Shown in pieces: positions 10,141 to 64,000 of a stretch of 64,000 nucleotides of DNA. Position 1 is the first letter of the stretch. Every line of letters starts with the position of its first letter. A program made the position numbers and the translations under genes. The notes beneath the pieces were generated by a model. That model did no database searches, was not told the DNA's origin, and saw only the letters and a program-made list of their open reading frames with translations. The stretch is from Pseudomonadota bacterium (GTDB lineage: Bacteria > Desulfobacterota > Binatia > Binatales > Binataceae), in contig JAJPIG010000015.1 in the NCBI GenBank assembly GCA_021324855.1, positions 248,001-312,000 of the forward strand, given 5' to 3'.

Positions 10141-10214
10141 CGTGGGATTGCGCTGCGAACTATGATTCACGGGCGGAAGAATATCGCCGGGGCGATGCCT
10201 TGCAAAGCGAGCCC

Positions 10215-10244
10215 TTGACGATTTGGCGCGCGCCAACCTAGCAT
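10215..10244 (+). promoter_or_regulatory. Sigma70-type promoter with palindrome in the spacer
   Basis: TTGACG (10215-10220) and TAGCAT (10239-10244) are 18 bases apart. The spacer contains a perfect 14-base palindrome TTGGCGCGCGCCAA at 10223-10236, placed where a repressor would block polymerase. It lies in the divergent interval between the LLM gene and the hydrolase. Prediction by eye only. Confidence 0.45.
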
Positions 10245-10283
10245 CACGTGGCCAATCCTGACTCTCGAAACGGAGCAATCATA

Positions 10284-11096
10284 ATGAAAGAGAACTTCAT
10301 AGATGCCGGCGGAATCAAAACCCATTACTACGAAGAGGGGCGTGGACCGACGGTCATCCTGATTCACGGTGGCGGCGCGGGTGCCGATGCGTGGGGCAAC
10401 TGGCGCGGCACGATTCCGCTTTTTGCCGAACATTTCCACACCATCGCGGTCGACATGCTGGGCTTCGGTCAGACCGACAAGCCCGACCCGGCGAATTTCA
10501 TCTACAGCCAGGAGACGCGCACGCGACACATCGCGTCCTTTATCGAGGCGCTCAAGCTCGGAAAGGTGCACCTGGTCGGCAACTCGATGGGCGGGATGAC
10601 CTCGCTGTGCGTCACAATGACCCGGCCGGAGCTGGTCGACAAACTGGTGTTGATGGGCGCGGCGGGAATCAAGGCGCCAATCAACGAGTCGCTGCGCGTG
10701 ATCATGGGATACGAGCCGAATCGGGAGAACATGGTCAAACTGATCAAGGCGCTCACCAATGATGACTTCGTCGTCGATCCTGAATTGGTCGAGTACCGCT
10801 TGAAGCTCACGATGGAGCCGGCAACCGCGGCGGCTTACGGCGCGATCATGAAATGGATTGGCGAGCAGGGCGGGCTTTACATCCCGAACGAGAGCGACAT
10901 CGCGAAAGTCAAACACAAGACTCTCATTGTGGGCGGCAAGAATGACAAGGTGGTGCCGCCGGAAAGCAACTGGCGTTTTTCGCAGTTGCTCGAGAACTCC
11001 TGGCTCCATCTGATTCCGCGTTGTGGCCATTGGGCGATGATCGAACGGCCGGCGGAGTTCGCAGCCGTGACCGGCTGGTTCATACGCAACGCTTAG
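10284..11096 (+). CDS. Alpha/beta hydrolase, meta-cleavage-product (C-C) hydrolase-like
   Basis: 270 residues; ATG at 10284 with GGAG eight bases upstream. Nucleophile elbow GNSMGG with S101, acid D221 (GGKNDKVVPP) and H249 (CGHWAMIERP) form the triad. The oxyanion motif LIHGGGAGADAWGNW and the DMLGFGQTDKP segment are characteristic of BphD/HsaD/TodF-type hydrolases, which split vinylogous 1,5-diketones formed by ring meta-cleavage. No extradiol dioxygenase is seen in the window, so another C-C or ester substrate is possible. Just after its stop comes an in-phase nitrilase remnant. Confidence 0.88.
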   Translation: MKENFIDAGGIKTHYYEEGRGPTVILIHGGGAGADAWGNWRGTIPLFAEHFHTIAVDMLGFGQTDKPDPANFIYSQETRTRHIASFIEALKLGKVHLVGNSMGGMTSLCVTMTRPELVDKLVLMGAAGIKAPINESLRVIMGYEPNRENMVKLIKALTNDDFVVDPELVEYRLKLTMEPATAAAYGAIMKWIGEQGGLYIPNESDIAKVKHKTLIVGGKNDKVVPPESNWRFSQLLENSWLHLIPRCGHWAMIERPAEFAAVTGWFIRNA

Positions 11097-12851: not shown

Positions 12852-14117
12852 ATGAGTATGATGCCGCCATCGATCGAGTCGCGCGTGAAACGCTACGCGG
12901 AACAGCGCTGGCTATTGGACTGCATAGTGCGTACGGTCGGCATCGAATGGGATCAGAACCGGATTGGCTACACCAGCGCGCCGGCCGGACCCGAAGCGAC
13001 CGCCGATTTCATGGCGGTGCGAAACCGGGTTCAGAAATTTTCCGACATCCCGCGCGAGTTCGCCCGCGCGGCGCGCCGGCGCGAGACCCTCGGCCGCCGT
13101 TATGAAGAAGACGGACACACGGTGTCAGCGCGCGAATGCTATTTCATCGCCTCGCTGCTCTACGGCAGTGCGATGTGGCCGATTTTTGCGAACACGCCCG
13201 AAGTAATCGAGTACAACGACAAGAAGAACGAGTGCTATCAAAAGTATATTCAGTTTGCGCCTCATCGCATCGAACGAGTCGAGATTCCGTTCGCCGGGAA
13301 ATCGATTCCCGGTTATTTCCATTTGCCGCAGGGCGCAGCCGGCGCGGGCAAGCTGCCGTGCGTGCTCGCGATCGACGGCATGGACGGGTTCAAGGAGATG
13401 ATGGTCGCGATGTACGGCGACAAGTTGCTGGAGCGCAACCTCGCCATCCTTGCGATCGACGGTCCGGGGCAGGGCGAATGCTGCGTGCGCGAGATTCATT
13501 GCAGCGAGACGAACTTCATTGATGCGGGACAGGCGGCGCTCAAGTGGATTCGGGGCCGCAGCGAAATCGATCCCGACCGCATCGCGATTCAAGCCGTCAG
13601 CATGGGCTCGTTCTGGGCAACGCAGGTCGCGACCGCGGACGACAAGCTCCGCGGCTGCAGCGTCGCTTACGTTTGTCACGAGCCGGGAATGAATACCATC
13701 TTCAATCTCGCGTCGCCTACCTTCAAGTTGCGCTACATGTATATGGCCGGTTACGACGACGAAGAGGAATTCGATCGCTTCGCGACGAAGCTCACCCTGA
13801 TGGATATTGCAGATCGCGTGAAGTGCCCTTACTTATGCATCGCCGGCGAGGACGACGAGTTGAGTCCGGTTGAATATACATATGAACTGATGGATCGAAT
13901 GCGGTGCCCAAAGGAACTGCTGATGTACCAGGGCGAGCGGCATGCACTGCATGCGACGACCGCAACCGCACTCGGTCCAAGCCCGCATACCTATAGCGCC
14001 GACTGGCTCGCCGATCGGCTCGAGGGCTGGCCGATGGAGACGCGCGAGATTTACGTGGATCTCGCCGGCCAAACGCACATCAGCCGATGGGGCGAGCGGC
14101 GCGCGAGTCGGAAATGA
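12852..14117 (+). CDS. Alpha/beta hydrolase, FrsA / dihydroxypseudooxynicotine-hydrolase-like
   Basis: 421 residues; ATG at 12852 with a strong GGAGGAAA site ahead. An alpha-helical N-terminal half (about residues 1-130) precedes a hydrolase core with IDGMDGFKE, AIDGPGQGE and the nucleophile segment QAVSMGSFW (S250); ERHALH carries the likely catalytic His. This architecture is that of 2,6-dihydroxypseudooxynicotine hydrolase, a C-C bond hydrolase of nicotine breakdown, and related FrsA-like esterases. Its stop overlaps the start of the Rieske oxygenase by four bases (ATGA), so they are translationally coupled. Family is solid; true substrate is inference. Confidence 0.85.
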   Translation: MSMMPPSIESRVKRYAEQRWLLDCIVRTVGIEWDQNRIGYTSAPAGPEATADFMAVRNRVQKFSDIPREFARAARRRETLGRRYEEDGHTVSARECYFIASLLYGSAMWPIFANTPEVIEYNDKKNECYQKYIQFAPHRIERVEIPFAGKSIPGYFHLPQGAAGAGKLPCVLAIDGMDGFKEMMVAMYGDKLLERNLAILAIDGPGQGECCVREIHCSETNFIDAGQAALKWIRGRSEIDPDRIAIQAVSMGSFWATQVATADDKLRGCSVAYVCHEPGMNTIFNLASPTFKLRYMYMAGYDDEEEFDRFATKLTLMDIADRVKCPYLCIAGEDDELSPVEYTYELMDRMRCPKELLMYQGERHALHATTATALGPSPHTYSADWLADRLEGWPMETREIYVDLAGQTHISRWGERRASRK

Positions 14118-15172
14118 GCGAGGATCGAAAGACTATGTTCATGCAGAATGCATGGTACGCGGCGGCGTGGGGTAGCGAGCTTAACGACAAGCCGCTCGGA
14201 CGCCGAATTTGCGATCGGCCGGTGGTGCTCTACCGCTTGAGCGATGGAACCCCCGCGGCGCTCGAAGATCTCTGCTGCCATCGACTGCTCCCACTCTCGC
14301 ACGGAAACATTGAGGGCGACCTGCTGGTCTGCGGTTATCACGGCTTGGCGTTCGATCGCACGGGTCAGTGCGTGCGCATTCCAAGTCAGACCAGGCCCGG
14401 CGCGCGAGCGCGCGTGCGGAGCTATCCGATTGTCGAGCGGCATCGTCTGCTCTGGATTTGGATCGGCGGTCCCGCGCTCGCCGATCCGGCCCAGGTTCCC
14501 GATTTGCACTGGAACGACGCGCCCGGATGGGCGTTTGCCGGCGACATGCTGCCGATGGCCTGCGATTATCGGCTGATCATCGACAACCTGCTTGACCTCA
14601 CCCACGAGACATACATCCATCCGACTTCGCTCGGCCACGATTTGATTCCAGGCACGCCGATCGAGACCGTCTGGGACGACGACAGCGTGACCGTCTCGCG
14701 CTGGATTCTCGATCATCAACCGGCGCCGTTCTGGGCGCGGATGATCGAGCGGGCGCGCGGCTGGCGCGGGCGATGCGATCGCTGGCAGATCGTGAAGTTC
14801 GTACCGCCGAGCAACGTGGTGCTTGACGTCGGCGTCGCCGAGGTCAACAGCGGAGCGCGCGAAGGAAACCGAGCGAAAGGCGTCACCGGACGGCAGCTCA
14901 ATTCGCTCACTCCGGCGACCGCGACGACCTGTTGGTACTTCTGGTCGCTGGCGCGCGATTTCGCAGTCGAAGACGAGGAGCTTACGCGCGAACTGCAGGC
15001 GACGGTGCGGCGGATCTTCGCCGAAGATCAGCTCATTATCGAGGCGCAGCAGCGCGCGATGCTCGAAAATCCCGGCGCGCGAATGATCAACATCAATCTC
15101 GATGCGGCGTCGATCCGGATGCGCCGGATGATCGAGGCGCGCGGCGCCGCCGCCCGCTCGCAGGCTGCCTGA
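14114..15172 (+). CDS. Rieske oxygenase, vanillate-O-demethylase (VanA)-like
   Basis: 352 residues. Begins MSEDRKTMFMQNAWYAAAWG, which is the standard opening of VanA-type single-component oxygenases. The Rieske site is LCCHRLLPLSHG followed by CGYHGL, and the iron site is NLLDLTHETYIHPTSLG with H-x4-H. Such enzymes act as O-demethylases or hydroxylases on aromatic substrates, fed by a VanB-type reductase not found in the window. Four-base overlap with the gene before; the next gene is convergent and begins only four bases past the stop. Confidence 0.9.
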   Translation: MSEDRKTMFMQNAWYAAAWGSELNDKPLGRRICDRPVVLYRLSDGTPAALEDLCCHRLLPLSHGNIEGDLLVCGYHGLAFDRTGQCVRIPSQTRPGARARVRSYPIVERHRLLWIWIGGPALADPAQVPDLHWNDAPGWAFAGDMLPMACDYRLIIDNLLDLTHETYIHPTSLGHDLIPGTPIETVWDDDSVTVSRWILDHQPAPFWARMIERARGWRGRCDRWQIVKFVPPSNVVLDVGVAEVNSGAREGNRAKGVTGRQLNSLTPATATTCWYFWSLARDFAVEDEELTRELQATVRRIFAEDQLIIEAQQRAMLENPGARMININLDAASIRMRRMIEARGAAARSQAA

Positions 15173-15176
15173 GCCG

Positions 15177-16121
15177 CTATTTTATCGCCTGCGGATTCAC
15201 CGGCGAGCCGACTGCACCAGTGATCGGCAGCGGCGGCGCGACGAACATGAATTCGTAAACGCCATCGGCGGCGCAATCCTCGCCGAGCGCTTCGAGGTCG
15301 AAGATTTCGCCGACCAGCAATCCGATGTTCGGGATCATCACCTGGTGCAGAGGCTGGAACGCGTCGGGAAGCTCGTTGGGCCGCACCTCGCATCCCCAGG
15401 TGTCGCTTGCGATGGCTGCGATTTCCGTCCGATGGAGCCAGCCAGCGGTGTAGAACGAGAGCCCCGGCGCATCACCGGCGGCGAAGGTACCCCAGCCGTG
15501 CTTCTTGCCATGGCCGAGCTGGCCGGTCCTGATCAACACCGCGTCGCCGCGTCCAATCTTCACCTTCTCGCGCGCGGCGCACTGCGTGAGGTCCTCTTCG
15601 CTGATCGCATAGCCGGGCTTGAGAGCTTCAACCCCCTTGAAGCGCGCGATGTCGAGCAGTACGCCGCGCGTGACGATGCGGCTCGCCATGTGCTCGATGC
15701 CGTTGAGTTCCGCGCCGCGGCTCGTGACGCGCGCCGCATCGTAGCCGTTCCACATCTTGGCGTTGTCGTAGATATGAGCGAGCGCATCCCACTGCGTGCC
15801 GCACTGCAGGAACATCGACACGAAGTCATCGGCCGCGCCGATGCCGTGCGGCATGTCCTGTTTGCCCGATGCAGCGTCGGTGCCGGTCAGCACAAACGTA
15901 TGCACTGGATTGACGCGTCCCCATGCGCCGGTCTGCGGTCCCCTCTCATCGAAAGGCAGCGCACACGAGATGACCTTGCCATGGCGCACCATGCGTGACG
16001 CTTCGACGATCTTTTCGGGCGTGATGTAGTTAAGCGTGCCGAGCTGATCGTTGGGTCCCCACTTCCCCCAGTTGCGATACTTGCGCGCCGCCTCCTGGAT
16101 GATCTCTTCCGTTTTGGTCAT
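15177..16121 (-). CDS. Cyclase-family (kynurenine-formamidase-like) protein with altered metal motif
   Basis: 314 residues, ATG at 16121 with AAGGAGGG about eight bases before it. The fold is recognised from the opening KWGPNDQLGTLNYITPEKIV, the RGVLLDIARFKG segment, and the C-terminal DTWGCEVRPNELPDAFQPLH. The family's metal site is normally H-x-G-T-H-x-D-x-P-x-H; here it reads QCGTQWDALAH, so two metal histidines are Gln and the Pro is replaced. Likely a hydrolase of a cyclic amide, N-formyl compound or lactone, though whether metal is bound is open. Lies between two Rieske oxygenases on the opposite and same strands. Confidence 0.82.
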   Translation of the reverse strand: MTKTEEIIQEAARKYRNWGKWGPNDQLGTLNYITPEKIVEASRMVRHGKVISCALPFDERGPQTGAWGRVNPVHTFVLTGTDAASGKQDMPHGIGAADDFVSMFLQCGTQWDALAHIYDNAKMWNGYDAARVTSRGAELNGIEHMASRIVTRGVLLDIARFKGVEALKPGYAISEEDLTQCAAREKVKIGRGDAVLIRTGQLGHGKKHGWGTFAAGDAPGLSFYTAGWLHRTEIAAIASDTWGCEVRPNELPDAFQPLHQVMIPNIGLLVGEIFDLEALGEDCAADGVYEFMFVAPPLPITGAVGSPVNPQAIK

Positions 16122-16172
16122 CGAAACAACCCTCCTTTGAAACGCCCCGTGCTGAAAAAACTGCCGCGCCCG

Positions 16173-17372
16173 TCAGCCGCCATGTCCGGGCGGCGGTTCC
16201 TGGATGCCGCGATTAAAACGTGCCGCCAGCTTGCGCCATCCGACCACAATTGCATCGGTCTTGCATAGCTGCTCTTCGCTCCATCCGTCCATATCGCGGT
16301 AAAAATCCTCCATCGCCTCGCGCGCAAACAGATCGCGATTGTTGAAATCATAGAGGCCGAGCGGTTCGAAGAAATTTTTGTAACGGAACTCGGCTTCCCT
16401 GCGATCGTCATCGCTGTTGCAGTGCCCGACGATCAATTCCCAGTACTCGTGCGTGCGATCATCGATCGGCACGTAAAACTCGTATTGCGCCCAGTTCGCG
16501 GCCGGCCAATGCTCGACTAAAAGCACGCCCGGCACGAACATCGAGGTGCGCACGTAGTATTGCAGCTTGCCGGGTGTCTCGATGTTGACGAGGTCGTTCC
16601 TGTAGATGGGCTTGTAGGATTCGAGGCGGTTGTACATGTTCATGATGCCCTTGGGACCGTCGGGCTGATCAATGATCTCGATCGCCCGATCGTCCATCGG
16701 CTCCGCCCCGAGGATCAGCGCCATCCCGGTCGCTGCGACGATCTGATTGTCGTAGTGGATCAGCACATGTCCGGGATCGAAGCCGTTTTCGACCGCCAGC
16801 CGCCAGTTGGAATTTCCCGTGCGATGAATCCCGCGCACGAACACGTTGTCGTCGAGCAGATAGCCGACCGGATTACCGGTCGGATCATCAACGATTCGGA
16901 TTGGCAGGTCAGCTTCGATCGGCGGTATTGGCCGGTAATTTTCATCGCCGACGAAGACGAAGATGATTCCGTTGCGCTCGTAGGTCGGATAGGTGCGGAT
17001 TTTCACCCGGCCAATCTGCGCATCGTCGGGCGAGGCAAGGATCGTCTTCAGCACGCCGTCCTCGAGCCCGTAGGTGAAGCCGTGATACCAGCAGGTCAGA
17101 TGCTCGTCGGTCAGGCACATCGATTTCTTCGACATCCTGACGCCGCGATGCGCGCAGCGATCGGCGAGCGAATAGACCTTACCTTTTGCGCGGCGGAGCG
17201 CGATTTCATGGCCTGCGATGGTAACTCCCTTCACGATGCGGTCGGGCAATTCATGGCTGAACAACGCCGGATACCAATGGTTCTTGAGTCCCCACGCCGC
17301 CTCCAAGTAAGGCTGGTACTCGCGACGTGACGCGATGTTTCGGGCTCCGAGCTTACGCGCAGCGGTCGCCAT
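16173..17372 (-). CDS. Rieske oxygenase, carbazole-dioxygenase / oxoquinoline-monooxygenase-like
   Basis: 399 residues from the ATG at 17372, which has GGGAG about eight bases ahead. Rieske ligands are in DRCAHRGVRMS and CWYHGFTYG. The mononuclear iron region VENGFDPGHVLIHYDN, with the DPGH-x3-H pattern, is characteristic of the homotrimeric class that includes carbazole 1,9a-dioxygenase and 2-oxo-1,2-dihydroquinoline 8-monooxygenase, enzymes that attack N-heterocyclic aromatics. Electron donors are not encoded nearby. Shares a divergent upstream region with the SnoaL-like gene. Confidence 0.9.
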   Translation of the reverse strand: MATAARKLGARNIASRREYQPYLEAAWGLKNHWYPALFSHELPDRIVKGVTIAGHEIALRRAKGKVYSLADRCAHRGVRMSKKSMCLTDEHLTCWYHGFTYGLEDGVLKTILASPDDAQIGRVKIRTYPTYERNGIIFVFVGDENYRPIPPIEADLPIRIVDDPTGNPVGYLLDDNVFVRGIHRTGNSNWRLAVENGFDPGHVLIHYDNQIVAATGMALILGAEPMDDRAIEIIDQPDGPKGIMNMYNRLESYKPIYRNDLVNIETPGKLQYYVRTSMFVPGVLLVEHWPAANWAQYEFYVPIDDRTHEYWELIVGHCNSDDDRREAEFRYKNFFEPLGLYDFNNRDLFAREAMEDFYRDMDGWSEEQLCKTDAIVVGWRKLAARFNRGIQEPPPGHGG

Positions 17373-17548
17373 GGCGAATCTCCCTCGGCTTGGATGGCGT
17401 GAACTTACACCCAAGCGGCCCATCTGTGGAGTGGCGGCGTTGCCTGGTTCCGCGCCGGTCCATAAACTGCCGCGCTAAAGAGAGTCTGATCAGTCTGCCC
17501 ATCTTCTTGATCGCCCGCAGCGGGAGAATCTCGCATGGAGGACCAGTC

Positions 17549-36093: not shown

Positions 36094-36783
36094 GTGAACG
36101 GTGTGCATGATCTGGGCGGGATGCACGGCTTCGGGCCGATCCCGCGCGAGGAGAACGAGCCGGTCTTCCACGCCGACTGGGAGCGCCGGATGTACGGCAT
36201 CGCGCGCATCCTGCTGAACCAGCGCGTCTTCACGCTTGACGAGTATCGGCATTCCATCGAGCGCATTCCGCCGTCGGTCTATCTGGGCGCGAAATACTAC
36301 GAGAAATGGGCGATCGGCGCGACCGGCCTGCTGCTCGAAAAGGGCATCATCAAACCGTCGGACTTGAAGGGCGTCAAGCCGATCAATTTGAACCCGACGT
36401 TTTCGCTCAGCGCGAAAGCGCGCGGCGATTCGATCTTTAAGCACCCGTCGAGGGCCGTAAAAGCGCGCTTCAAGCCGGGCGACAAGGTGATCGCGCGCAA
36501 CGTGAATCCGCGCGGCCATACCCGGCTCCCGCGCTATGTGCGCGGCAAGCGCGGCACGATCCAGTTCGATGAGGGCGTCTTCGCGCTGCCGGATGCGAAT
36601 GCGCATGGCGGCGGCATGATCCTGCAGCACGTCTATTCGGTGCGCTTCGCGGCGCGCGAGCTGTGGGGACCCGAGGCGCCGGCGCGCGATTCGGTTGCGA
36701 TCGATTTGTGGGAGCAGTACCTGGAGCCGGAGCCCGCGCGCAGCTCCAACGGACGCGGGCGCAACGGGCGCGGCAGGAGATAA
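36094..36783 (+). CDS. Nitrile hydratase beta subunit
   Basis: 229 residues, GTG start at 36094 with GGGGTGAAAC before it. Opening [20 protein letters not shown] is diagnostic of the beta chain, and [20 protein letters not shown] is its C-terminal SH3-like part with the Arg residues that contact the metal cysteine loop of alpha. The enzyme hydrates nitriles to amides in the cytosol. Its tail ([13 protein letters not shown]) is an unusual basic extension. The order beta then alpha is that of cobalt-type operons. Two bases separate it from alpha. Confidence 0.95.
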
Positions 36784-36785
36784 AC

Positions 36786-37460
36786 ATGGCGGCCAATCAT
36801 CAGGCTCACGAGCATCATCGGCACGACGAGCCCGAATCGGACATTACGCTGCGCGTCAAGGCGCTCGAATCGATCCTGGTCTCCAAGGGCCTTGTCGATC
36901 CGCAGGCGCTCGACATGTTGATCGATACTTACGAGCATCGCGTCGGCCCGCACATCGGAGCGAAAGTTGTGGCGCGCGCCTGGAGCGATCCGGCTTACAA
37001 ACGCCGCCTGCTCGAGGATGGCACTGCGGCGGTGAACGAGCTGGGCTTTCCGCCCGGCCCCGAGGGTATCAACCTGATCGTGCTCGAGAACACGCCGAAA
37101 GTTCACAACGTGGTCGTCTGCACGCTCTGCTCGTGCTACCCGTGGGGAACGCTCGGCCTGCCGCCGGTATGGTACAAGAGCCCCGCCTATCGCGCGCGTG
37201 CGGTCGGCGATCCGCGCGGCGTGCTGCGCGAGTTCGGGACTGAGCTAGACGACGACGTCGAAATCCGCGTCTGGGACAGCAGCGCCGAGGTGCGCTACTT
37301 GGTGCTGCCGGAGCGCCCCCCTGGGACCGAGCGAATGACCGAAGAGGAGTTGGCGGGACTGGTCACCCGCGATTCGATGATCGGTGTGGCGAAAGCGAAG
37401 TCGCCGAAGGCCGGCGCGCGAAAGCGTCCGGGCAACGGCCGCGCGGAGCATCGCGTCTGA
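36786..37460 (+). CDS. Nitrile hydratase alpha subunit, cobalt type
   Basis: 224 residues from ATG at 36786. The metal-binding loop [11 protein letters not shown] is complete: C112, C115, S116 and C117 as ligands. Thr at position 113 (CTLCSC rather than CSLCSC) marks the cobalt rather than iron form. Extra His-rich N-terminus ([17 protein letters not shown]) and basic C-terminal tail are noted; the N-terminal histidines might help in metal loading. Followed seven bases later by the accessory gene. Confidence 0.96.
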
Positions 37461-37467
37461 AGCTGCG

Positions 37468-37842
37468 ATGCCTTCCGAGCGCCCCGAAGATCGCAAAATT
37501 CCGGTCCGCCCCGAAGAGGACGAGCCGGTTTTCCGTACGCCGTGGGAGGCGCGGGTCTTCTCGATCGCCGTCCATCTGAGCCGTCACGGTCTCTTCACGT
37601 GGGAAGAGTTTCGCCAGCGTCTAATCGCAGAAATCGCGAGGCCCGATGCGAGCGAGGATTATTATCAGAACTGGCTGCGTGCGCTCGAAGGGCTGCTCGA
37701 TGACAAAGGCACGCTGATCGCCGAAGAGATCGATCGCGAACTCGCCGAGTTGAAGGCGAATCCGCCCGCGCCGCAACGTCACAGCCATCAGCCCGACAAA
37801 CCTCTCCGCGTCTTTCCCTCGTCCCGCAGCGAACGAAACTGA
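37468..37842 (+). CDS. Nitrile hydratase accessory (beta-like activator) protein
   Basis: 124 residues, ATG at 37468. Resembles the N-terminal domain of the beta subunit (DEPVFRTPWEARVFSIAVHL, SRHGLFTWEEFRQRLIAEIA), as do the NhlE/P14K-type activators that swap alpha chains and deliver cobalt. The segment EDYYQNWLRALEGLLDDKGT is conserved in these accessory proteins. Completes a beta-alpha-accessory operon. No dedicated amidase follows, nor does a cobalt importer. Confidence 0.88.
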   Translation: MPSERPEDRKIPVRPEEDEPVFRTPWEARVFSIAVHLSRHGLFTWEEFRQRLIAEIARPDASEDYYQNWLRALEGLLDDKGTLIAEEIDRELAELKANPPAPQRHSHQPDKPLRVFPSSRSERN

Positions 37843-45529: not shown

Positions 45530-46705
45530 ATGAGTCTCGCAATCATCAATCTTGGCGATTCGCACTGCGGCGATCTGGTCGGATCGCCGATTAAGGGCGA
45601 CGCCGTGATCTGCGCTGATGGAACGATCGCATGGATCGGCAGTTCGAGCGAAGTCCGCCCCGGCGAGCATGAGACTGTCGTCGATGCGGCCGGGGCGACG
45701 CTCGCGCCCGGCCTTATCGATTCGCATTTTCACAATTCATTCGGCGACTACACGCCGCGGCAAAACGCCGCCGGCTATTTCGAGAGCTACCTGCACGGTG
45801 GAATGACCCGCGCGATCTCGGCCAGCGAGATTCATGTGCCCGGACGCCCGCGCGATGTCCCCGGCGTCAAGGCGCTCGCGATCACTGCCGAGCGATGCTT
45901 TCGCGACTATCATCCGGCGGGCGTCACGCTGCACGCCGGCTCGGTCATCCTGGAACCGGGCCTTACGCCCAACGACTTCGCCGAGTTGAGGCGTCACGGC
46001 GTATGGCTCGCCAAGGCCGGCTTCGGCTCTTTCGCTCATCCGATGGATTACGTGCCGGTCGTTCACGCGGCCCGCGCCGCCGGGTTGGTCGTCATGTGCC
46101 ATACGGGTGGAAGCTCGCTGCCCGATACGAAAGAAAAAATCGGCGCGAACGAGATCATCGCGATGCATCCGAACGTCGCTGGTCACGTGAATGGCGGACC
46201 AACCGCGCTCAGCGTTGAAGAGAACGCACGCATCGTGAGCGAAGGCGGCGATATTGCCTTGCAGGTGGTGCGCGCCGGTAATTTCCGTTCTGCGCTCGAT
46301 ATCGTAAAGCGCGCCATCGACGGCAATTGCCTCGAACGGGTGCTGATCGCGAGCGACTCGCCGAGCGGCACCGGCTTACTGTCGCTTGGGATGCTGAGCC
46401 TGATGGCGGAGCTGGCGTCGGTCGGGCCGCTCAGCGGACGCCAGGCGATCGCGGCGGCGACCGGCTCCGTCTCCGCGGTCTACGGGCTTCAGGCAGGACG
46501 GATCGAAGTCGGGCGTCCGGCCGATTTAATCGTTATCGATGCGCCCCATGGTTCGTCGGCGAAGGATGCCTTCAGCGCGCTGGAATTGGGCGATGTGGCC
46601 GCCGTAGCCGTGGCGATCACACAGGGCATCGTGCGGTTCGCACGCAGCCGCAATACGCCGCCGCCAATGCGTCGAGTGAGAGTCAGCGACCGGGGCAGCG
46701 GCTAG
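45530..46705 (+). CDS. Amidohydrolase, enamidase-like (nicotinate-pathway type)
   Basis: 391 residues. Besides the amidohydrolase metal pair H66-x-H68 (APGLIDSHFHNS), long segments recall the enamidase of nicotinate fermentation in Eubacterium barkeri: DYTPRQ, FHGGMTRAISA-type, HPNVAGHVNGGPTALSVEE, ASDSPSGTGL and the C-terminal SRNTPPP. Enamidase hydrolyses 6-oxo-tetrahydronicotinate with deamination to 2-formylglutarate. The match is from memory, without alignment. It sits beside a cupin and two genes before a molybdenum hydroxylase, the partner enzyme type in that pathway. Its TAG stop overlaps the stop of the convergent hydrolase. Confidence 0.82.
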   Translation: MSLAIINLGDSHCGDLVGSPIKGDAVICADGTIAWIGSSSEVRPGEHETVVDAAGATLAPGLIDSHFHNSFGDYTPRQNAAGYFESYLHGGMTRAISASEIHVPGRPRDVPGVKALAITAERCFRDYHPAGVTLHAGSVILEPGLTPNDFAELRRHGVWLAKAGFGSFAHPMDYVPVVHAARAAGLVVMCHTGGSSLPDTKEKIGANEIIAMHPNVAGHVNGGPTALSVEENARIVSEGGDIALQVVRAGNFRSALDIVKRAIDGNCLERVLIASDSPSGTGLLSLGMLSLMAELASVGPLSGRQAIAAATGSVSAVYGLQAGRIEVGRPADLIVIDAPHGSSAKDAFSALELGDVAAVAVAITQGIVRFARSRNTPPPMRRVRVSDRGSG

Positions 46706-47550
46706 TTTCTTGGGCGTGGACCGAGTCCCATCTGGTTCAAGATCGCCTGGAACAGCGGACTTGCAGGATTTCCCAACTCGCCAATGATCGAGAAGTGATG
46801 CATCTGCGGAACGACCATCAGGTTGCCGTGGAAGCCCTGCTCGATCCAGGCCTCGAAAAATTCGATCGACTGACGGATAAACTCTGAGGTCTCGTCGCGT
46901 CCGACAGCGACGGTCAGCGGACATCCGCGCTTCGGTAGATGGAGCAGCGGGCTCAAGCGCGCGGCCGTCCCTTCATCGAGGCGGAGCGCTTCGTTGTAGC
47001 TCGTGAATCGGATCGGCCGCATGTCGAAGACGCCGCTGATGAGCGTCGCCCCCGCGATAGTGCTGTCGGTCGCCATCATCAGCGCGGCCAGATGACCGCC
47101 AGCTGAATTGCCGGCGAGATGAATGCGCGCCGGATCGCCGCCCAGCGCCTCGGCATGGTGATGAATCCAGGCCGTCGATTCGCTCACCTGGCGCACCATC
47201 TCGTCGAGCGTGACGGTCGGCGCGAGCGGATATTCGATCGAAATGAAAATCGCGCCGGCGCGCGTGAAGGGCAGGGCCGGAAACGCGCGTTCGTCCTTGT
47301 TGCCCGCGCGCCATCCGCCGCCGTGGATGAACGCCAGGATCGGCGCGCGTGGCCGTTCAGTGAGATAGACGTCGAGGCGCTGGTCCGGCCCCGGGCCGTA
47401 TGCGATGTCGATGCGCGACTTGAGCCGCGCCCGCACCAGCTCGCTTTCGGCCTTGTAGCGAGCGCGGCATTCGGCGGCATCGATAACGCCCAGTTCCGGA
47501 TTGTAGAGTCGGGCGAGTTCGGCGGGGTCGTAGTCGCGGTACGCTTTCAT
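46702..47550 (-). CDS. Alpha/beta hydrolase, arylformamidase/HSL-esterase-like
   Basis: 282 residues from ATG at 47550. HGGGW oxyanion motif at AFIHGGGWRAG, nucleophile in LAGNSAGGHLAA, and likely acid/His in AVGRDETSEF and MHHFSII. The start AYRDYDPAELARLYNPEL resembles bacterial arylformamidases (N-formylkynurenine) and related carboxylesterases. Convergent with the enamidase gene: the two stop codons share the palindrome CTAG at 46702-46705. Confidence 0.85.
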   Translation of the reverse strand: MKAYRDYDPAELARLYNPELGVIDAAECRARYKAESELVRARLKSRIDIAYGPGPDQRLDVYLTERPRAPILAFIHGGGWRAGNKDERAFPALPFTRAGAIFISIEYPLAPTVTLDEMVRQVSESTAWIHHHAEALGGDPARIHLAGNSAGGHLAALMMATDSTIAGATLISGVFDMRPIRFTSYNEALRLDEGTAARLSPLLHLPKRGCPLTVAVGRDETSEFIRQSIEFFEAWIEQGFHGNLMVVPQMHHFSIIGELGNPASPLFQAILNQMGLGPRPRN

Positions 47551-47693: not shown

Positions 47694-48464
47694 ATGAATC
47701 AGCCCATCATCAACAGCAAGGACGAAATCCCGGACGAGCACTATCGTAAGATGGTGCTGACGCTGATGGATCGGCAGGCGGGCCGCGAGATTGCGACTGC
47801 CGAGGTTTTCGGCCAGTGCGTCATCTTCGCGCCCACGCTCGACGACAAGGTCCGAATCACGCGTTATCAGAACGAGGAGCTGAAGCATTTCAAGCTGGTG
47901 GCGAAGCTGATGGCGGAGCTGGGCGTCGATATCGATCACTACGTTGCCGACCGCAAACGAGCCGGCGCGCGCTTCACCGGCAATGAATCGGACGTCACGG
48001 TGACGGACTGGATCGATGCGACGCTGTTCAACTTCATGATCGATCGCGCGGCAACCTATCAGCTCACCGAATACACGCGCGGCAGCTACGCGCCGCTGGC
48101 GAAGGCCAACGTCTCGATTCTGCGCGATGAAGAGCGGCACAAGGATTTCGGCGAGCATTGCCTGATCGAGATGTGCCGTGATCCGGAGATGCGCGCCGAG
48201 ATTCAGCGCCGCTTCCACAAGTGGTTCATCGGTGCGATGCGAATTTTCGGTCGTCCGGGTACGCCCGGCAATCGCTACTGTCTCGAAGTCGGTCTCAAGC
48301 AGCGCGACAGCGGCGAGATCGCGGCGGCGTATCTCGATTCGATTCGCCCCGTGATGGCGCGATGCGGGCTCAAGTTTCCGCGTCGCGAGGATTTGCCGAT
48401 CGAGCTTGCGCCCGAGTTGAATCTCGAAGTTCCGGCGCATCACGACGCCCAGCGCGTCGCCTGA
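47694..48464 (+). CDS. Ferritin-like di-iron protein, PaaA/PaaC-like
   Basis: 256 residues. Ligand pattern: E37 (TAEVFG), E62/H65 (NEELKHFK), a helix with E126, and E146/H149 (DEERHKDFG). This is the arrangement of phenylacetyl-CoA epoxidase subunits and related proteins, which use iron and O2. The gene opens a tight operon with a molybdenum hydroxylase (20 bases to the L subunit), so an oxygenase or electron-transfer role on the same substrate is likely. No PaaB, PaaE or CoA ligase is nearby. Confidence 0.82.
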   Translation: MNQPIINSKDEIPDEHYRKMVLTLMDRQAGREIATAEVFGQCVIFAPTLDDKVRITRYQNEELKHFKLVAKLMAELGVDIDHYVADRKRAGARFTGNESDVTVTDWIDATLFNFMIDRAATYQLTEYTRGSYAPLAKANVSILRDEERHKDFGEHCLIEMCRDPEMRAEIQRRFHKWFIGAMRIFGRPGTPGNRYCLEVGLKQRDSGEIAAAYLDSIRPVMARCGLKFPRREDLPIELAPELNLEVPAHHDAQRVA

Positions 48465-48484: not shown

Positions 48485-50905
48485 ATGGCTGCAACGCAAA
48501 AATGGGTGGGCCAGCCGCTCAAACGCACCGAAGACCCGCGTCTGCTGGTCGGCGATGGCGTTTTCATCGCGGATCAGCTCTTTCCGAATCTTCACCACGC
48601 CGCGATCCTGCGGAGCCCCCACGCGCATGCGCGCATCCGCTCGATCGATGCCAGCGCGGCGCTCCGGCTTCCCGGCGTGGTCGGCATCGTCACTGGCCAG
48701 GATGCCGCCAAAATGACGCGGCCGTTCGCGGTCGGCGTGCGGGCGCCCGTCAAGTACTACTGCATGGCGGTCGACAAGGTGCGTTTCGTCGGCGAGCCGG
48801 TTGCCGTCGTGGTCGCGACCAATCGCTATCTCGCCGAGGACGCGCTGGATCTCATCCAGGTCGATTACGAGCCGCTGTCGGCCGTCGTCGATCCCGAGCG
48901 CGCGCTCGCGGCCGATGCGCCGCTGCTGCACGAAGAGGTCGGCTCCAATCTCGCCTGCCATCGCCATATTGTTTATGGCGATCCCGATGCCGCGTTTGCC
49001 GATGCCGAGGTCGTGATCAGCGAGCGCTTTGTGTTTCCGAAGTACGGCTCCACTCCGATCGAAACCTACGGCGTGGTGGCGTCGTTCGATCGGACCAGCG
49101 ACGTGCTGACGATTCACGCGAACTTCATGGGCCCGTTCATCCTGCATCCGATTACAGCGCGCGCCCTGAACCTGCCCGAGAACAAGTTGCGCCTGGTCGT
49201 CCCGCCCGACATCGGCGGCAGCTTCGGCATCAAGACCGGCATCTTTCCTTACATGAGCCTGGTCGGGCTCGCCGCGATGAAGACCGGCGTGACCGTCAAG
49301 TGGATCGAGGATCGCCGCGAGCATCTGTTGGCTTCGTCCAGCGGCACCGATCGGATCGCCTATCGCGAGCTTGCCGCGCGCCGCGACGGAACCATCCTCG
49401 CGATGCGCACGCGGTGGTATGACAACGTCGGTGGCTACATCCGGACTCCGGAGCCGGGCTGCTCGTTCCGTCCGATCGGCAATTGGTTCGGCGCATATCG
49501 TTTCCAGCATCTCGAAGCCGACGCCAACGTCGTGATGACCAACAAGAGCCTGACCGGGCCGAATCGCGGTTATGCCTGCGGCCATCTGTATTTCGAGATC
49601 GAACGGATGGTCGACCTACTGGCCGAGAAGATCGGGATGGACCCGGCCGAGGTGCGCCGCCGCAATTTCATCCAGCCCGGCGAATTTCCTTATCGGACAC
49701 CGAGCGGCGGACTCTATGATTCCGGCGATTATCCGGCGGCATTCGAGAAGGCGCTCGAACTCGCCGACTACGCCGGTTTGCGGCGCAGCCAGGAGCAGGC
49801 GCGCGCCGACGGCCGGCTGTTCGGCGTGGGACTGGCGGTGGCGGTTGATCCGTCGGTCTCGAACATGGGCTATATCACCGTCGCGCTCGATCCCGAGATC
49901 CGCGGACGCCCGGGCTACCTGCCGAAATCGGGCGCTCTGGAAGCGGCCACGGTCAAGGTCGATCCGCTCGGCCGGATAATCGGCGTGCTCGGCTCGGCGC
50001 CCCAAGGCCAGGGCCATCGCACCGTCGTCGCGCAGATTATCGCTGACGAACTCGGCATCGCTCCCGACGACATCACGATCGTTGACGAGATGGATACTTT
50101 CACGCGGGTCTGGGGCATCTCGTCGGGCACCTACTCGAGCCGCTTCGGCTCGGTCGGCACCAGCGCCGCCGCGCTTGCGGCACGCCGGTTGCGCGACAAG
50201 CTCGTGCGGTTCGCTTCTTATCTGATGGAAGTTCCGCCCGAGAGTGTCGTCTGGTCAGAAGGCGGAGCGCACCACGCGAACAACGGTCAGGTGCTCACGC
50301 TCAAGGACCTTGCCGGCCGGGCGCACTGGGATGTCGAATCGATTCCGCCCGGTATGGAAGCCGGGCTCGAAGCGACCGCGGTTTTCGCCTTTCCCGAAGC
50401 GAAGGCGCCCGACCTGCAGGATCGCGTGAATTCATCGAACACCTACGGTTTCATCGCCGAAGTGATGGCGGTGGAAATCGATCCCGATACCGCCGCAATC
50501 AAAATTCTCAAGTACGTGACAGTGCACGATGCCGGCGAGATCATCAATCCCGCGATCGTCGAAGGCCAGATCTATGGCGGCGCGTTGCACGGCCTCGGCG
50601 GCGCGCTGTACGAGGAGCTGGCGTACGATGAACAGGGCCAGGCGCTGGCCGGCTCGTTCATGGACTACCTCGTCCCGACCGCTCACGAAGCGGTCAAGAT
50701 CGATATCGCGCACGTCGTCAGTCCCTCGCCCTTTACCACCCTTGGCGCCAAGGGACTCGGCGAATCCAGCTCGATGACCGTGCCTGCGGTGCTCGCGAAT
50801 GCCGTCACCGACGCGCTCAAGCCGCTCGGCGTGCATATCCGCGAGCTGCCGATCACGCCCAGCCGGTTGTGGCATCTGATGGAATCCGCGCGGAGCAAGC
50901 GATGA
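48485..50905 (+). CDS. Molybdenum hydroxylase large subunit (xanthine-dehydrogenase family), first copy
   Basis: 806 residues. Mo-cofactor-binding domains with QPLKRTEDPRLLVGDGVFIA, PPDIGGSFGIKTG, SAPQGQGHRTVVAQIIADEL and the catalytic Glu in GAKGLGESSSM. The substrate-side loop reads GPNRGYACGH, unlike CO dehydrogenase (no CSFR) and unlike the usual RGxGxP loop, so this is a hydroxylase of unknown substrate. It overlaps the next gene by four bases (ATGA). These enzymes hydroxylate N-heterocycles or aldehydes using water. Confidence 0.92.
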   Translation: MAATQKWVGQPLKRTEDPRLLVGDGVFIADQLFPNLHHAAILRSPHAHARIRSIDASAALRLPGVVGIVTGQDAAKMTRPFAVGVRAPVKYYCMAVDKVRFVGEPVAVVVATNRYLAEDALDLIQVDYEPLSAVVDPERALAADAPLLHEEVGSNLACHRHIVYGDPDAAFADAEVVISERFVFPKYGSTPIETYGVVASFDRTSDVLTIHANFMGPFILHPITARALNLPENKLRLVVPPDIGGSFGIKTGIFPYMSLVGLAAMKTGVTVKWIEDRREHLLASSSGTDRIAYRELAARRDGTILAMRTRWYDNVGGYIRTPEPGCSFRPIGNWFGAYRFQHLEADANVVMTNKSLTGPNRGYACGHLYFEIERMVDLLAEKIGMDPAEVRRRNFIQPGEFPYRTPSGGLYDSGDYPAAFEKALELADYAGLRRSQEQARADGRLFGVGLAVAVDPSVSNMGYITVALDPEIRGRPGYLPKSGALEAATVKVDPLGRIIGVLGSAPQGQGHRTVVAQIIADELGIAPDDITIVDEMDTFTRVWGISSGTYSSRFGSVGTSAAALAARRLRDKLVRFASYLMEVPPESVVWSEGGAHHANNGQVLTLKDLAGRAHWDVESIPPGMEAGLEATAVFAFPEAKAPDLQDRVNSSNTYGFIAEVMAVEIDPDTAAIKILKYVTVHDAGEIINPAIVEGQIYGGALHGLGGALYEELAYDEQGQALAGSFMDYLVPTAHEAVKIDIAHVVSPSPFTTLGAKGLGESSSMTVPAVLANAVTDALKPLGVHIRELPITPSRLWHLMESARSKR

Positions 50906-51774
50906 AACCACCGCCGTTCGAGTATCACGATCCGAAGACCGTCGATGAGACGCTCGCGATCCTCGGCCGTTACGGCGGCGAGGCGCGGCTGCTTGCCGGA
51001 GGCCAAAGCCTGATGGCGTTGCTCAACTTCCGCCTGGCCTCGCCCGCCGCGCTGGTCGATCTGAATCCCGTTCCCGAACTTTCGTACATCAGGGAGGAAG
51101 GCGGCCAGCTTCGGTTCGGCGCGATGACGCGCCAGCGCCAAATCGAGTTCTCGCCGCTGGTCGCGAGCCGGCTTCCGCTGATGATCGAAGCGACGCGGAT
51201 GGTCGGTCATCTGCCGACGCGGACCCGCGGGACGATCGGCGGCAGCATCGCGCACGCCGATCCAGCGGCTGAATATCCAGCCCTGGTTACCGCGCTCGAT
51301 GGCGAGATGGTGCTGCGGAGCGCATCGGGAACGCGTGTCGTCAAGCCGGCCGATTTCTTCAAGGGCTTTTTTACCACCGCAATCGCGCCCGGCGAGATGC
51401 TGGTTGAGGTGCGCATTCCGGTGACGCCGGCGCACAGCGGATGGGCGTTTGAAGAGTTCAGCCGGCGCCACGGCGATTTTGCAATCGTCGAAATCGTCAC
51501 GATGCTCACGGTCGACAACGGACGCTGCACGCGCGCGCGTGTTGCGGCATCGGGCGTCGGTGGCGCTCCGGTCCGGCTGCGGCCGGTCGAAGAGATTCTC
51601 GAGCGGGACGGAGTCGGCGAGCGGGCGATCGGCGAGGCCTCGGCACGCGCGGCCGAGCTGGTCGATCCGACCAGCGATCTGCACGCATCGGCGGATTATC
51701 GCCGCCATCTGACCCGCGTTCTGACCCGCCGCGCTCTGACCCGGGCCGCTCTGCAAGTCAGGGGGAACAACTGA
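50902..51774 (+). CDS. Molybdenum hydroxylase FAD-binding (medium) subunit
   Basis: 290 residues. FAD-binding motifs: LLAGGQSLMALLNFRLA and TRGTIGGSIAHADPAAE. The chain PPPFEYHDPKTVDETLAILG is the standard opening of this subunit. It passes electrons from the iron-sulfur subunit to an acceptor. Overlaps the L gene by four bases and the S gene by one (TGATG). Confidence 0.95.
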   Translation: MKPPPFEYHDPKTVDETLAILGRYGGEARLLAGGQSLMALLNFRLASPAALVDLNPVPELSYIREEGGQLRFGAMTRQRQIEFSPLVASRLPLMIEATRMVGHLPTRTRGTIGGSIAHADPAAEYPALVTALDGEMVLRSASGTRVVKPADFFKGFFTTAIAPGEMLVEVRIPVTPAHSGWAFEEFSRRHGDFAIVEIVTMLTVDNGRCTRARVAASGVGGAPVRLRPVEEILERDGVGERAIGEASARAAELVDPTSDLHASADYRRHLTRVLTRRALTRAALQVRGNN

Positions 51775-52259
51775 TGGCCGAGCCAAGGAAAGTCAGCTTC
51801 AAGATCAACGGCGCGGTGCGCGAAGGCACTACCGAGCCGCGCAAGCTGCTGGTTGATTTCATCCGCGACGACCTGGGCCTTACCGGCACGCACATCGGAT
51901 GCGAGCACGGCATCTGCGGCGCTTGCACAATTCTGTTCAACGGCGAAGCGGCGCGCTCGTGCCTGATGCTCGCGGTGCAGGCCGATGGCGCCGAAATCAC
52001 GACGGTTGAAGGGCTGGCTGCGCCCGACGGCACCTTGCATCCGCTGCAGCAGGCCTTCTGGGAGCATCATGCGCTCCAATGCGGATTCTGCACTCCGGGG
52101 ATGCTGATGGCGGCGTGTGATCTGTTGCGCGTCAACCCGAGTCCCACCGAAGAGGAGATTCGAACCGGACTGTCGGCCGTGCTCTGCCGATGCACCGGCT
52201 ACCAGGGCATCGTTGACGCGGTGAAGGCGGCGGCCGACCGCATGCGTTCATCGAATTAG
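51774..52259 (+). CDS. Molybdenum hydroxylase [2Fe-2S] small subunit
   Basis: 161 residues. N-terminal plant-type cluster ligands C43, C48, C51, C63 (GCEHGICGACTILF) and C-terminal cluster ligands C103, C106, C138, C140 (CGFCTPG, CRCTGYQ). It carries electrons from molybdenum to FAD. The intergenic gap to the second large subunit is 57 bases. Confidence 0.96.
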   Translation: MAEPRKVSFKINGAVREGTTEPRKLLVDFIRDDLGLTGTHIGCEHGICGACTILFNGEAARSCLMLAVQADGAEITTVEGLAAPDGTLHPLQQAFWEHHALQCGFCTPGMLMAACDLLRVNPSPTEEEIRTGLSAVLCRCTGYQGIVDAVKAAADRMRSSN

Positions 52260-52316
52260 TTCTGCCGCCCGGGCCGGCGAGCGGCGGACAAAAGGGATGG
52301 TTGATGATCTGTACCC

Positions 52317-54722
52317 GTGGCTGACTCGGAGCTAATCGCATCGGGGGCGGACTCCGGCGCGAAGCCGGCGAAGCTAGTCGGCGCGCGCGTGAAGCGTGTC
52401 GAGGATCGCCGCCTGCTCACCGGTCACGGTTCCTTCACTGACGACTTCCACCCGCCGAATTTGGCTTACGTGGCGTTCCTGCGCTCGCAGGATGCCCATG
52501 CGCGCATCGTCAGAATCGATGCGGACGGGGCGCGCGCGATGCCGGGCGTGATTGCGGTGGTCACCGGCGCGGAGCTGGCGCGTGTGGCGAAGCCGATGTG
52601 CGCGCGCTCCACAATGGCCAGTTACCGAATGACGAGCCTGCCGGCGCTTGCGATCGACAAGGTCCGACATGTCGGCGAGGCTATCGCGGCGGTCGTCGCG
52701 GAGAGCCGCTACACTGCCGAAGATGCCTTGGAGAAGATCGTCGTTGAACTCGAAGCGTTGCCGCCCGTCAGCGACGTTGAAGCCGCCGCCACCCCGGGCG
52801 CGCCGCTCCTCCATGACGAGGCCGGTTCCAATGTGCTGGTGTCGCGCGAGTTCGCGCGCGGCGCAAGCACGTCCGGACTTAATCGCGATGCGCCGCCGGG
52901 CGCCGCGGTGACAGTTCGCGATCGCTTTCGGTTTCGCCGCCACGCCGCGATCTGCATCGAGCCGCGCAGCTACGTCGCCGAATACAATTCCGGAAGCGGC
53001 GAGCTGCTCCTGCATTCATCGACGCAATGTCCGGGCGTGGTGCGCACGGCGCTCGCCGAGAGCCTCGCGATGCCTGAGCACCGGATCCGGGTGATCGCGA
53101 TCGACGTGGGCGGCGGCTTCGGCGCGAAGTCCTCGGTCTATCCGGAAGAGCTTGCCGTTTGCGCTCTCGCGCGGATGCTCAAGCGGCCGATCAAGTGGAC
53201 CAGCGATCGGCGCGAAGACCTGCTCACGACTTCGCAGGGCTGGGACGAGATCATCGATGCGGAACTCTCGCTCGGCGCGGACGGCGCGATTATCGAGCTC
53301 AAGGCCAATGTCATTGCGGACATCGGCGCGTACTCCGTGCATCCGTGGACGCTCGTAATCGAACCGGTCCAGACCGTGAGCTTCATGCCCGGGCCGTATC
53401 GGGTCGCGAACTACTGGGCGCGCGCGACGGGCGTCGCCACGTGCAAGGCCCCGACCGGGCCGTATCGCGGCGTGGGGCGGCCGATCTCGACTTTCGTTAT
53501 GGAAGGTCTCATCGATCGCGCGGCGCGCCGCCTCGGAATCGATCCCGCGGACCTCAGGATGCGCAATTTTGTGCGGCCCGATGAGTTCCCGTACCGAACC
53601 GCCACCGGTATCGTATGGGACCGCGCGCCGTTCTTTGAGCTTATGGAACGGGCGCGAGCGCGGCTTGGTTATGACGACCTTCGCGCCCAGCAGCAGCGCG
53701 GGCGCGCTTTTGGACACTACCTCGGAATCGGCTTCGCATCGTATTGCGAGCTTACCGGCATCGGTTCGGCGACGCCGGCCGCGCCCGGCATGACGGTGCC
53801 GGCGGGGACGGAGGCGGCGACCGTGCGGGTCGATCCATCGGGGACGGTGACGGCGATTTTCGGCGTCGCCTCGCACGGCCAGGGACTCGAAACCACGCTC
53901 GGCCAGGTGGTTGCCGATGAACTCGAGGTCCCGCTCACTGATGTGAAGATCGCCTACGGTGATACGGCATCGGCGCCGTACGGAACCGGCAGCTATGCAA
54001 GCCGCGGGGCCGTGATGGGCGGCGGGGCCGGGATGCTGGCGGCGCGCGCGGTGCGTGAAAAGGCCGACCTCATAGCAGCTCATCTCCTCGAGACCGATCC
54101 GCGCATCAGCCGTGCGGAAGGCCATAGCCCGACCGTTCGCCAAGTCAGCCTGCGTGACATCGCACAGGCAGCCTACGCCGGGACCAAGCGGCTGCCGAAG
54201 GGAATCGAACCCGGCCTCGAAGCGACGCGTTTTTACGATCCGTACTACGGTACGGCGACCGCAGCGATACACGCGGTCGCGCTCGAAGTCGATCCCGAAA
54301 CCTTTGCAATCCGGATTATTCGCTATGTCACCGCAGAGGATTGTGGGCGTATCATCAATCCATTGATCGTCGACGGCCAGGTGGTTGGCGGCGCGGTGCA
54401 GGGCTTCGGCGCGGCGCTCTTTGAGCAGGTGGTTTATGATGAAAACGGCCAACTCGTCACCGGCAGCCTGATGGATTATGTCGTGCCGTCGGCGGCTGAC
54501 GCGCCGCAGATCATCGCGGAGCATCTGGAAAACCCGTCGCCGACCGCGCTTGGCGGCTTCCGCGGCGTCGGCGAATCGGGCACGATCGGCGCGCCGGCGG
54601 CGATCGCCAACGCGGTCGCGGATGCGCTCGCGCCGCTGGGAATTGAGCCCGGCGAGATTCCGATCACGCCCGACTCGCTGTTTCGCGCCGCAGCGCAACG
54701 GCTCCAGGAGCAGAAGAGATGA
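52317..54722 (+). CDS. Molybdenum hydroxylase large subunit, second copy
   Basis: 801 residues, GTG start at 52317. Full-length and different from the first copy: GGGFGAKSSVYPEELAV, the common loop GPYRGVGRP, SHGQGLETTLGQVVADEL, and catalytic Glu in GGFRGVGESGTIG. It has the more typical active-site loop of the two. Whether it shares the same medium and small subunits or needs another set is unknown; no further M/S genes are near. Overlaps the amidohydrolase by four bases. Confidence 0.93.
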   Translation: MADSELIASGADSGAKPAKLVGARVKRVEDRRLLTGHGSFTDDFHPPNLAYVAFLRSQDAHARIVRIDADGARAMPGVIAVVTGAELARVAKPMCARSTMASYRMTSLPALAIDKVRHVGEAIAAVVAESRYTAEDALEKIVVELEALPPVSDVEAAATPGAPLLHDEAGSNVLVSREFARGASTSGLNRDAPPGAAVTVRDRFRFRRHAAICIEPRSYVAEYNSGSGELLLHSSTQCPGVVRTALAESLAMPEHRIRVIAIDVGGGFGAKSSVYPEELAVCALARMLKRPIKWTSDRREDLLTTSQGWDEIIDAELSLGADGAIIELKANVIADIGAYSVHPWTLVIEPVQTVSFMPGPYRVANYWARATGVATCKAPTGPYRGVGRPISTFVMEGLIDRAARRLGIDPADLRMRNFVRPDEFPYRTATGIVWDRAPFFELMERARARLGYDDLRAQQQRGRAFGHYLGIGFASYCELTGIGSATPAAPGMTVPAGTEAATVRVDPSGTVTAIFGVASHGQGLETTLGQVVADELEVPLTDVKIAYGDTASAPYGTGSYASRGAVMGGGAGMLAARAVREKADLIAAHLLETDPRISRAEGHSPTVRQVSLRDIAQAAYAGTKRLPKGIEPGLEATRFYDPYYGTATAAIHAVALEVDPETFAIRIIRYVTAEDCGRIINPLIVDGQVVGGAVQGFGAALFEQVVYDENGQLVTGSLMDYVVPSAADAPQIIAEHLENPSPTALGGFRGVGESGTIGAPAAIANAVADALAPLGIEPGEIPITPDSLFRAAAQRLQEQKR

Positions 54723-63488: not shown

Positions 63489-63572
63489 TTTGCGCAAACT
63501 CACGGTTTGCAGGCGGGGTTGATCGCCCGGCTGCGCACAGCTAAGAGAGACGGAAATCAGCGGGAGTTAGGC

Positions 63573-64000
63573 ATGCACAGAATGAAGCTGCTTACGCGAT
63601 ACGCGTCGCGATTTGAAATCGCGGCCACGGCGCGGCCCTCGATCTTCCTCGCCGCGGCGGGCGCGCTGTGCCTTTGGTTTTCGGCGGCAGCTTCCGTCCA
63701 TGCGTTTCCGTGGAGCACCGATATGTTCGAGGGCGCGGCGGTGCAGCCGCTGGCGGTCGCGCCGCGCGTGATGCCGCAAGGGACGCTACCTATCAACGGC
63801 ATCCAGAAGATGGACCTTGAGCAGATGACGCTCGGCATGAAGAACCCGCTCAAGGAGACGCCCGAGAACCTGGCTCACGGCAAAGAACTCTTCATGAACA
63901 TCTGCCTGCCCTGCCATGGCGAGAACGCCGATGGCAATGGACCGGTTGCCCATCTGCTGCAACATAAGCCGACCAATCTCCGCACCGGCGTCAGTAAAAA
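63573..64000 (+). CDS. Monoheme c-type cytochrome, partial
   Basis: Frame open from ATG at 63573 (GGGAG about nine bases ahead) to the window edge, about 142 residues visible. Signal region (FLAAAGALCLWFSAAASVHA), then FPWSTDMFEGAAVQPLAVAP and NAH-like ligand context, with heme site CLPCH and the following HGENADGNGPVAHLLQH. The FPWSTDM...AVQPLAVAPRVMP opening resembles the cytochrome subunit of alternative complex III. Right end missing. Confidence 0.85.
   Translation, partial: MHRMKLLTRYASRFEIAATARPSIFLAAAGALCLWFSAAASVHAFPWSTDMFEGAAVQPLAVAPRVMPQGTLPINGIQKMDLEQMTLGMKNPLKETPENLAHGKELFMNICLPCHGENADGNGPVAHLLQHKPTNLRTGVSK

Follow-up and report, generated by a model that had tools for sequence, protein, structure and literature searches.

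The gene at 45530-46705 (+ strand) of the window, the stretch of 64,000 nucleotides analysed here, belongs, by its sequence, to a large sister branch of enamidase that is uncharacterised and that we call Lys-type. Its different metal-site residue, the lack of a ring reductase and the oxygen-using neighbours found in the branch make it probable that, in aerobic bacteria, it opens a different nitrogen ring. The reading that we favour, and hold to be somewhat more likely than not, is that of an enamidase-like hydrolase acting on a cyclic enamide or lactam that arises from oxidative, not reductive, ring chemistry, with a carboxylated lysine (Lys162) in its metal site and a nearby molybdenum hydroxylase operon (Mo operon) as its likeliest partner. 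To our knowledge, enamidase has a single characterised member, which comes from a fermentative anaerobe.

The reading frame is open from an ATG start and encodes 391 amino acids. When compared with PDB chains by phmmer, its top match was the enamidase of Eubacterium barkeri (2VUN; query residues 5-384, 332.7 bits, E = 2.8e-98), the runner-up being a dihydroorotase at 25 bits. Both sequences carry the same residue at 163 of 378 aligned positions (43%). An AlphaFold2 model of the protein, computed with 36 homologues as input, reached a mean pLDDT of 93 and a pTM of 0.93. Used as a Foldseek query, this model retrieved 2VUN first (E = 7.9e-47, TM 0.94/0.95), with the second match at 7e-17, and VIA-align gave a Z of 57.5 to 2VUN, whereas the next entry scored 30.9 and imidazolonepropionase 30.3; the rmsd to 2VUN is 1.7 over 381 residues. 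Over their full length, sequence and fold are nearer to 2VUN than to other amidohydrolases, which places the protein in the enamidase homology family. The enamidase homologue proposed by the initial annotation is hence borne out by the phmmer scores and by the first rank of 2VUN in both structural comparisons, and a grouping with imidazolonepropionases or other amidohydrolases was looked for with the same three programs and not seen. Identity as an imidazolonepropionase was ruled out by a score of 40.3 bits with TIGR01224, whose curated cut-off is 298.15, and by the far better agreement with 2VUN in sequence and fold; a dihydroorotase or another amidohydrolase was ruled out by the margins of phmmer, Foldseek and VIA-align. 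The GC3 of the gene is 0.75 versus 0.75-0.83 in its neighbours.

The four motifs named in that annotation (H-x-H, GGPTA, SPSGTGL and SRNTPP) were all found, each aligned to the same segment of 2VUN. The first metal-ligand pair after beta1, H66-x-H68 (45725-45733), aligns with HVH of 2VUN, and a further ligand, His191 (46100-46102), stands at the end of beta5. Alignment to 2VUN and the homologues also locates the metal ligand His219 with GGPTA at 222-226 (46184-46207) and the catalytic or metal aspartate Asp276 with the SPSGTGL loop at 277-283 (46355-46378), and the SRNTPP tail motif (373-378) aligns with that of 2VUN at 46646-46663, all on the + strand. The five metal ligands of enamidase (H66, H68, H191, H219 and D276) are therefore retained. 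In 97 aligned homologues H68, H191 and H219 are invariant and D276 is kept in all but one, while position 66 is His in 78/97 and Gln in 19/97. The 19 homologues with Gln66 are all Lys-type (for example L044, L049-L051, L056, L058, L061, L063-L065, L067, L071-L074, L080, L082 and L107), and this residue requires three changes on the tree. Asn at the equivalent of position 66 marks the molinate and phenylurea hydrolases, which suggests that the Gln66 proteins may be mononuclear.

Homologues were taken from plasmids, from related genomes and from a scan of genome contigs (the best 80 of 293 relatives), so that sequences resembling the query are over-represented. In the tree of these 97 sequences a single branch (SH-aLRT 95) parts 27 Glu-type proteins from 70 Lys-type ones, and the window protein falls among the latter. 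The two groups correspond to the residue at position 162, which is Lys in 70/97 and Glu in 27/97, including E. barkeri, and the E/K switch is one change on the tree. E. barkeri enamidase and all 13 enamidases linked to 6-hydroxynicotinate reductase (Hnr) fall in the Glu-type group. A second position follows the same division, since all 67 members of the main Lys-type group have Gln at 245 and all 27 Glu-type proteins have Glu there. The window protein has both Lys162 (46013-46015) and Gln245 (46262-46264), + strand, and so lacks the beta4 Glu typical of E. barkeri and of every Hnr-linked homologue. In the predicted model, residue 162 lies on the strand 160-163 (beta4) and residue 245 on the strand 243-247 (beta7). 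The bridging ligand of amidohydrolases is a carboxylated Lys or a Glu at the place in the motif that matches 162 (PMC4407906), and the residue at 162, whether the Glu of one group or the Lys of the other, is presumed to bridge the metals. When the window protein was forced into the Glu group, the tree was 68.5 log-likelihood units worse and was rejected (p-AU 0.014).

Within the Lys-type branch, the window protein is sister to a Homoserinimonas protein (L042; 58% identity, support 99), on a long branch of its own (0.72). It deviates from the Lys-type consensus at the near-invariant loop positions 199-201, 277 and 285, and shares with L042 a one-residue insertion at 201. It is the only Lys-type copy found among about 40 genomes of the same family. 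Three proteins from the window's class, L039-L041 (genomes G068, G092 and G074), have Lys in another context (VKFIFYD) and form a long branch of their own, and one betaproteobacterial contig (L063) carries two Lys-type enamidase genes, at 1-1158 and 9691-10887. On the Glu-type side, the homologue of a Prescottella equi plasmid (L010, 9992-11152) lies on a very long branch (1.52), without Hnr and beside IclR and MFS genes; it perhaps acts on a third substrate. The literature was searched for a Lys-type protein that has been characterised, for a pyrrole or pyrrolinone hydrolase and for AA_synth in degradation clusters, and yielded nothing usable.

To compare the gene partners of both groups, reference proteins were searched by tblastn on the flanks of 66 Lys-type and 26 Glu-type loci, because greedy ORF calls on GC-rich loci gave many antisense shadow ORFs. 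Flank lengths vary with contig ends, and the counts that follow are lower bounds. They are also statements on two clades and not independent events, since E/K changed once on the tree. Hnr was found at 0/66 Lys-type versus 13/26 Glu-type loci (p 5e-9), and the same contrast holds for UPF0280 (0/66 versus 11/26) and ferredoxin-NADP reductase (0/66 versus 8/26). Conversely, an O2-dependent oxygenase of any kind (HpaB-type or PnpA/HspB-type flavin monooxygenase, Rieske alpha subunit or LigB) is present at 41/66 Lys-type versus 0/26 Glu-type loci (p 8e-9). Within the Lys clade these oxygenases belong to several different families; the HpaB-type flavin monooxygenase occurs at 19/66 loci, and in 17 of these 19 no more than 1.5 kb separates it from the enamidase gene. 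AA_synth (PF06684) is common in both groups (49/66 and 20/26).

Nine bp upstream of the window gene lies a cupin gene (PF07883; 44984-45520, + strand), and at this distance both genes probably form one operon. The cupin was nevertheless dropped as a conserved partner because it turned up at no other Lys-type locus. A sigma-70 promoter scan gave nothing above chance. The convergent gene for a hormone-sensitive-lipase-like alpha/beta hydrolase (46702-47547, - strand) is probably not part of the unit. Neither AA_synth, HpaB nor an FAD monooxygenase, the common Lys-type partners, is found beside the window gene, and no HpaB, FAD, Rieske or LigB oxygenase lies within 10 kb of it, the Rieske genes being at least 28 kb away. 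What does follow, 1.8 kb downstream and on the + strand, is the Mo operon, composed of large subunit 1 (CODH/xanthine-dehydrogenase family; 48485-50905, 70-71% to the Rokubacteria loci L089 and L100), the FAD subunit (50869-51774), the 2Fe-2S subunit (51774-52259) and large subunit 2 (52317-54722, 58% to L089). It is preceded by a gene for a PaaA-like ferritin-fold protein (47694-48464, + strand) that adjoins the operon in the relative G013 too (76%). This molybdenum hydroxylase with two full large subunits (48485-54722) is kept at 58-80% in relatives and Rokubacteria (L089, L100, L135-L138). Its active-site loop has the usual form in subunit 2 (GPYRGVGRP) and an odd one in large subunit 1 (GPNRGYACGH), which may therefore not do ordinary xanthine-oxidase chemistry.

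Orthologues of the Mo operon come after a Lys-type enamidase gene, in the same orientation, in both L089 and L100, where an HpaB gene also adjoins the enamidase gene. Their enamidases belong to a different Lys-type sub-branch from that of the window, which points to repeated association of enamidase and Mo operon. Orthologues of the operon are also present in the relatives G008, G013, G014 and G016, in none of which our search of relatives found a Lys-type enamidase, so that the link is optional and the operon is weakened as a fixed partner. UbiD-like and acyl-CoA ligase genes lie near the operon in L135, and acyl-CoA ligase, enoyl-CoA-hydratase-like or UbiD-like genes appear near it in some other relatives as read from sequence alone. 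Taken together, the link between enamidase and Mo operon is suggestive.

The favoured reading can be laid out as a mechanism. The protein would be a metal-dependent hydrolase of the amidohydrolase superfamily, in which carboxylated Lys162 would bridge two metals and the metal-bound hydroxide would attack the amide within the ring of a cyclic enamide or lactam. If the ring is an enamide, the enamine left by ring opening would then, as in enamidase, pass to an imine that is hydrolysed with loss of ammonia, yielding an oxo-acid. From the partners of the whole branch, we infer that the ring amide would arise when an N-heterocycle is hydroxylated by a flavin, Rieske or molybdenum enzyme, rather than through Hnr, and in the window's genome the likeliest partner for this step would be the downstream Mo operon. 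A pyrrolinone or a pyridone-like lactam is a possible type of substrate. Hydrolysis of plain pyrrolin-2-one would yield succinate semialdehyde and ammonia, and an SSADH-type gene is found near 16/66 Lys-type genes; pyrrolinone is a possible substrate on the basis of this chemistry and these neighbours, and we do not claim it.

The initial annotation had offered either an aerobic reductive route for N-rings or a new cyclic-enamide substrate, in a genome that it read as aerobic. The aerobic setting is supported: the window encodes three Rieske oxygenases, and the genome has two genes for haem-copper oxidases. Two of the Rieske proteins, one with a VanA C-terminal domain (14087-15172) and one with the homotrimeric ring-hydroxylase domain PF11723 (16173-17423), flank a cyclase-like ORF (15177-16121), and the region 14087-17423 may be a further cluster for ring degradation, at a distance of 28 kb from the enamidase-like gene. 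The window also carries nitrile hydratase beta and alpha genes followed by a separate protein with only the NHase beta N-terminal domain (36094-37842). As to the cytochrome c that the initial annotation also cited, an ORF running off the window's end (63507-63998) has a CxxCH motif and no Pfam match. As to the reductive route, it does exist in aerobes and has long been known. Reduction of 6-hydroxynicotinate to tetrahydro-oxonicotinate is given for the aerobe Azorhizobium caulinodans in passages of PMC3511419 that cite Kitts (1989, 1992), the same article describes it in Bradyrhizobiaceae, and Azorhizobium is put on the same route as E. barkeri, where enamidase opens the ring (PMC9304392). Plasmids of aerobes (Comamonadaceae CP099606 and Sulfitobacter) carry clustered genes for Hnr (identified by similarity), UPF0280, AA_synth, ferredoxin-NADP reductase and an enamidase homologue. 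The window's own family has one apparently real nicotinate cluster, on contig C15 of G008 (L038, L125), where AA_synth, Hnr and a Glu-type enamidase occur together; this is the only other enamidase among the about 40 same-family genomes, with a branched-chain-type ABC transporter and a UbiD-like gene nearby.

Could the window gene then be a true nicotinate-pathway enamidase, converting 6-oxo-tetrahydronicotinate to 2-formylglutarate, with a reductase that the assembly has missed or whose place an unrelated enzyme has taken? Its 43% identity to 2VUN, with the same fold and motifs, the neighbouring molybdenum hydroxylase, as also seen at nicotinate clusters, and a genome that is only 96% complete would all agree with it. 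However, the protein has Lys-type residues at both 162 and 245, its placement in the Glu group is rejected by the AU test, and Hnr is found at none of the 66 Lys-type loci. A profile search for Hnr, the reductase whose presence the initial annotation had left to be looked for, found none in the window's genome (G000) although it recovered all four positive controls (G008, the genomes of L083 and L108, and CP099606), and AA_synth was found neither at the locus nor in the genome by a search that was positive in six other genomes. We accordingly reject the nicotinate pathway for this genome and regard such an enamidase as highly improbable; a new, putative cyclic-enamide substrate fits better than the aerobic reductive route.

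Somewhat less remote, and in our view still unlikely, is that the substrate is an acyclic enamide or N-acyl enamine left by oxygenase ring cleavage (compare pyridoxine and hydroxypyridine breakdown), or else an ordinary lactam or imide. The oxygenases beside 41/66 Lys-type genes, with PnpA/HspB-type FAD monooxygenases among them, would suit such a role. So would the looseness of the chemistry around this family, where KpiC, a related amidohydrolase with 28% identity to enamidase, is reported as a ring-cleaving dioxygenase (PMC7356986). The window protein nonetheless keeps the active-site set of enamidase complete except for 162 and 245. It is also conceivable, at a probability that we put very low, that the window copy alone is drifting or has taken up a different substrate, having lost its usual partners and no longer doing the job of the Lys-type branch. 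Its long branch, the altered near-invariant loop positions, its solitary occurrence in the family and the lack of any conserved partner but the Mo operon point that way. The intact reading frame, the conserved metal ligands, the neighbour-like codon make-up, the confidently predicted model and the insertion common to L042 speak against it.

The oxidative ring-opening reading has consequences beyond the window. The Lys-type is the larger branch in our sample, occurs in aerobes and has no characterised member that we could find in the literature. It is present in Pseudomonadota, Actinomycetota, Chloroflexota, Rokubacteria and others, where it would provide the ring-opening step for oxidised N-heterocycles if the proposed chemistry is true; the rule of residue 162 would in that case correct annotations copied from E. 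barkeri. More tentatively, there might be a widespread and so far undescribed aerobic route for N-heterocycles that makes the lactam directly by flavin, Rieske or molybdenum hydroxylation, needs no ring reduction, and relies on Lys-type enamidases to open the ring; the window gene, the cupin and the Mo operon would be one form of this route.

The clusters of the Azorhizobium/Bradyrhizobium type (here L011, L013, L108 and others) resemble the window in having an enamidase homologue in an aerobe and, at many loci, a molybdenum hydroxylase nearby, but their enamidases are all Glu-type, and the window's genome is without their Hnr and AA_synth. With E. barkeri enamidase (2VUN) the window protein shares the HxH, HTGG, HxNGG, D-x-P-x-G-x-G and SRNTP motifs; it differs in that Lys162 and Gln245 each stand where 2VUN has Glu, the former on beta4, in having one residue less before beta4, in lacking gene linkage to Hnr or UPF0280, and in its aerobic host. 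It has the same ligand set in the same order as the amidohydrolases with the metal motif H-x-H...K...H...H...D, with spacings of 93, 28, 27 and 56 compared with 83-140, 25-70, 18-25 and 52-143 (PMC4407906), the 27 being slightly outside the range. In sequence, however, its resemblance to enamidase far exceeds that to any Lys-type amidohydrolase with a solved structure.
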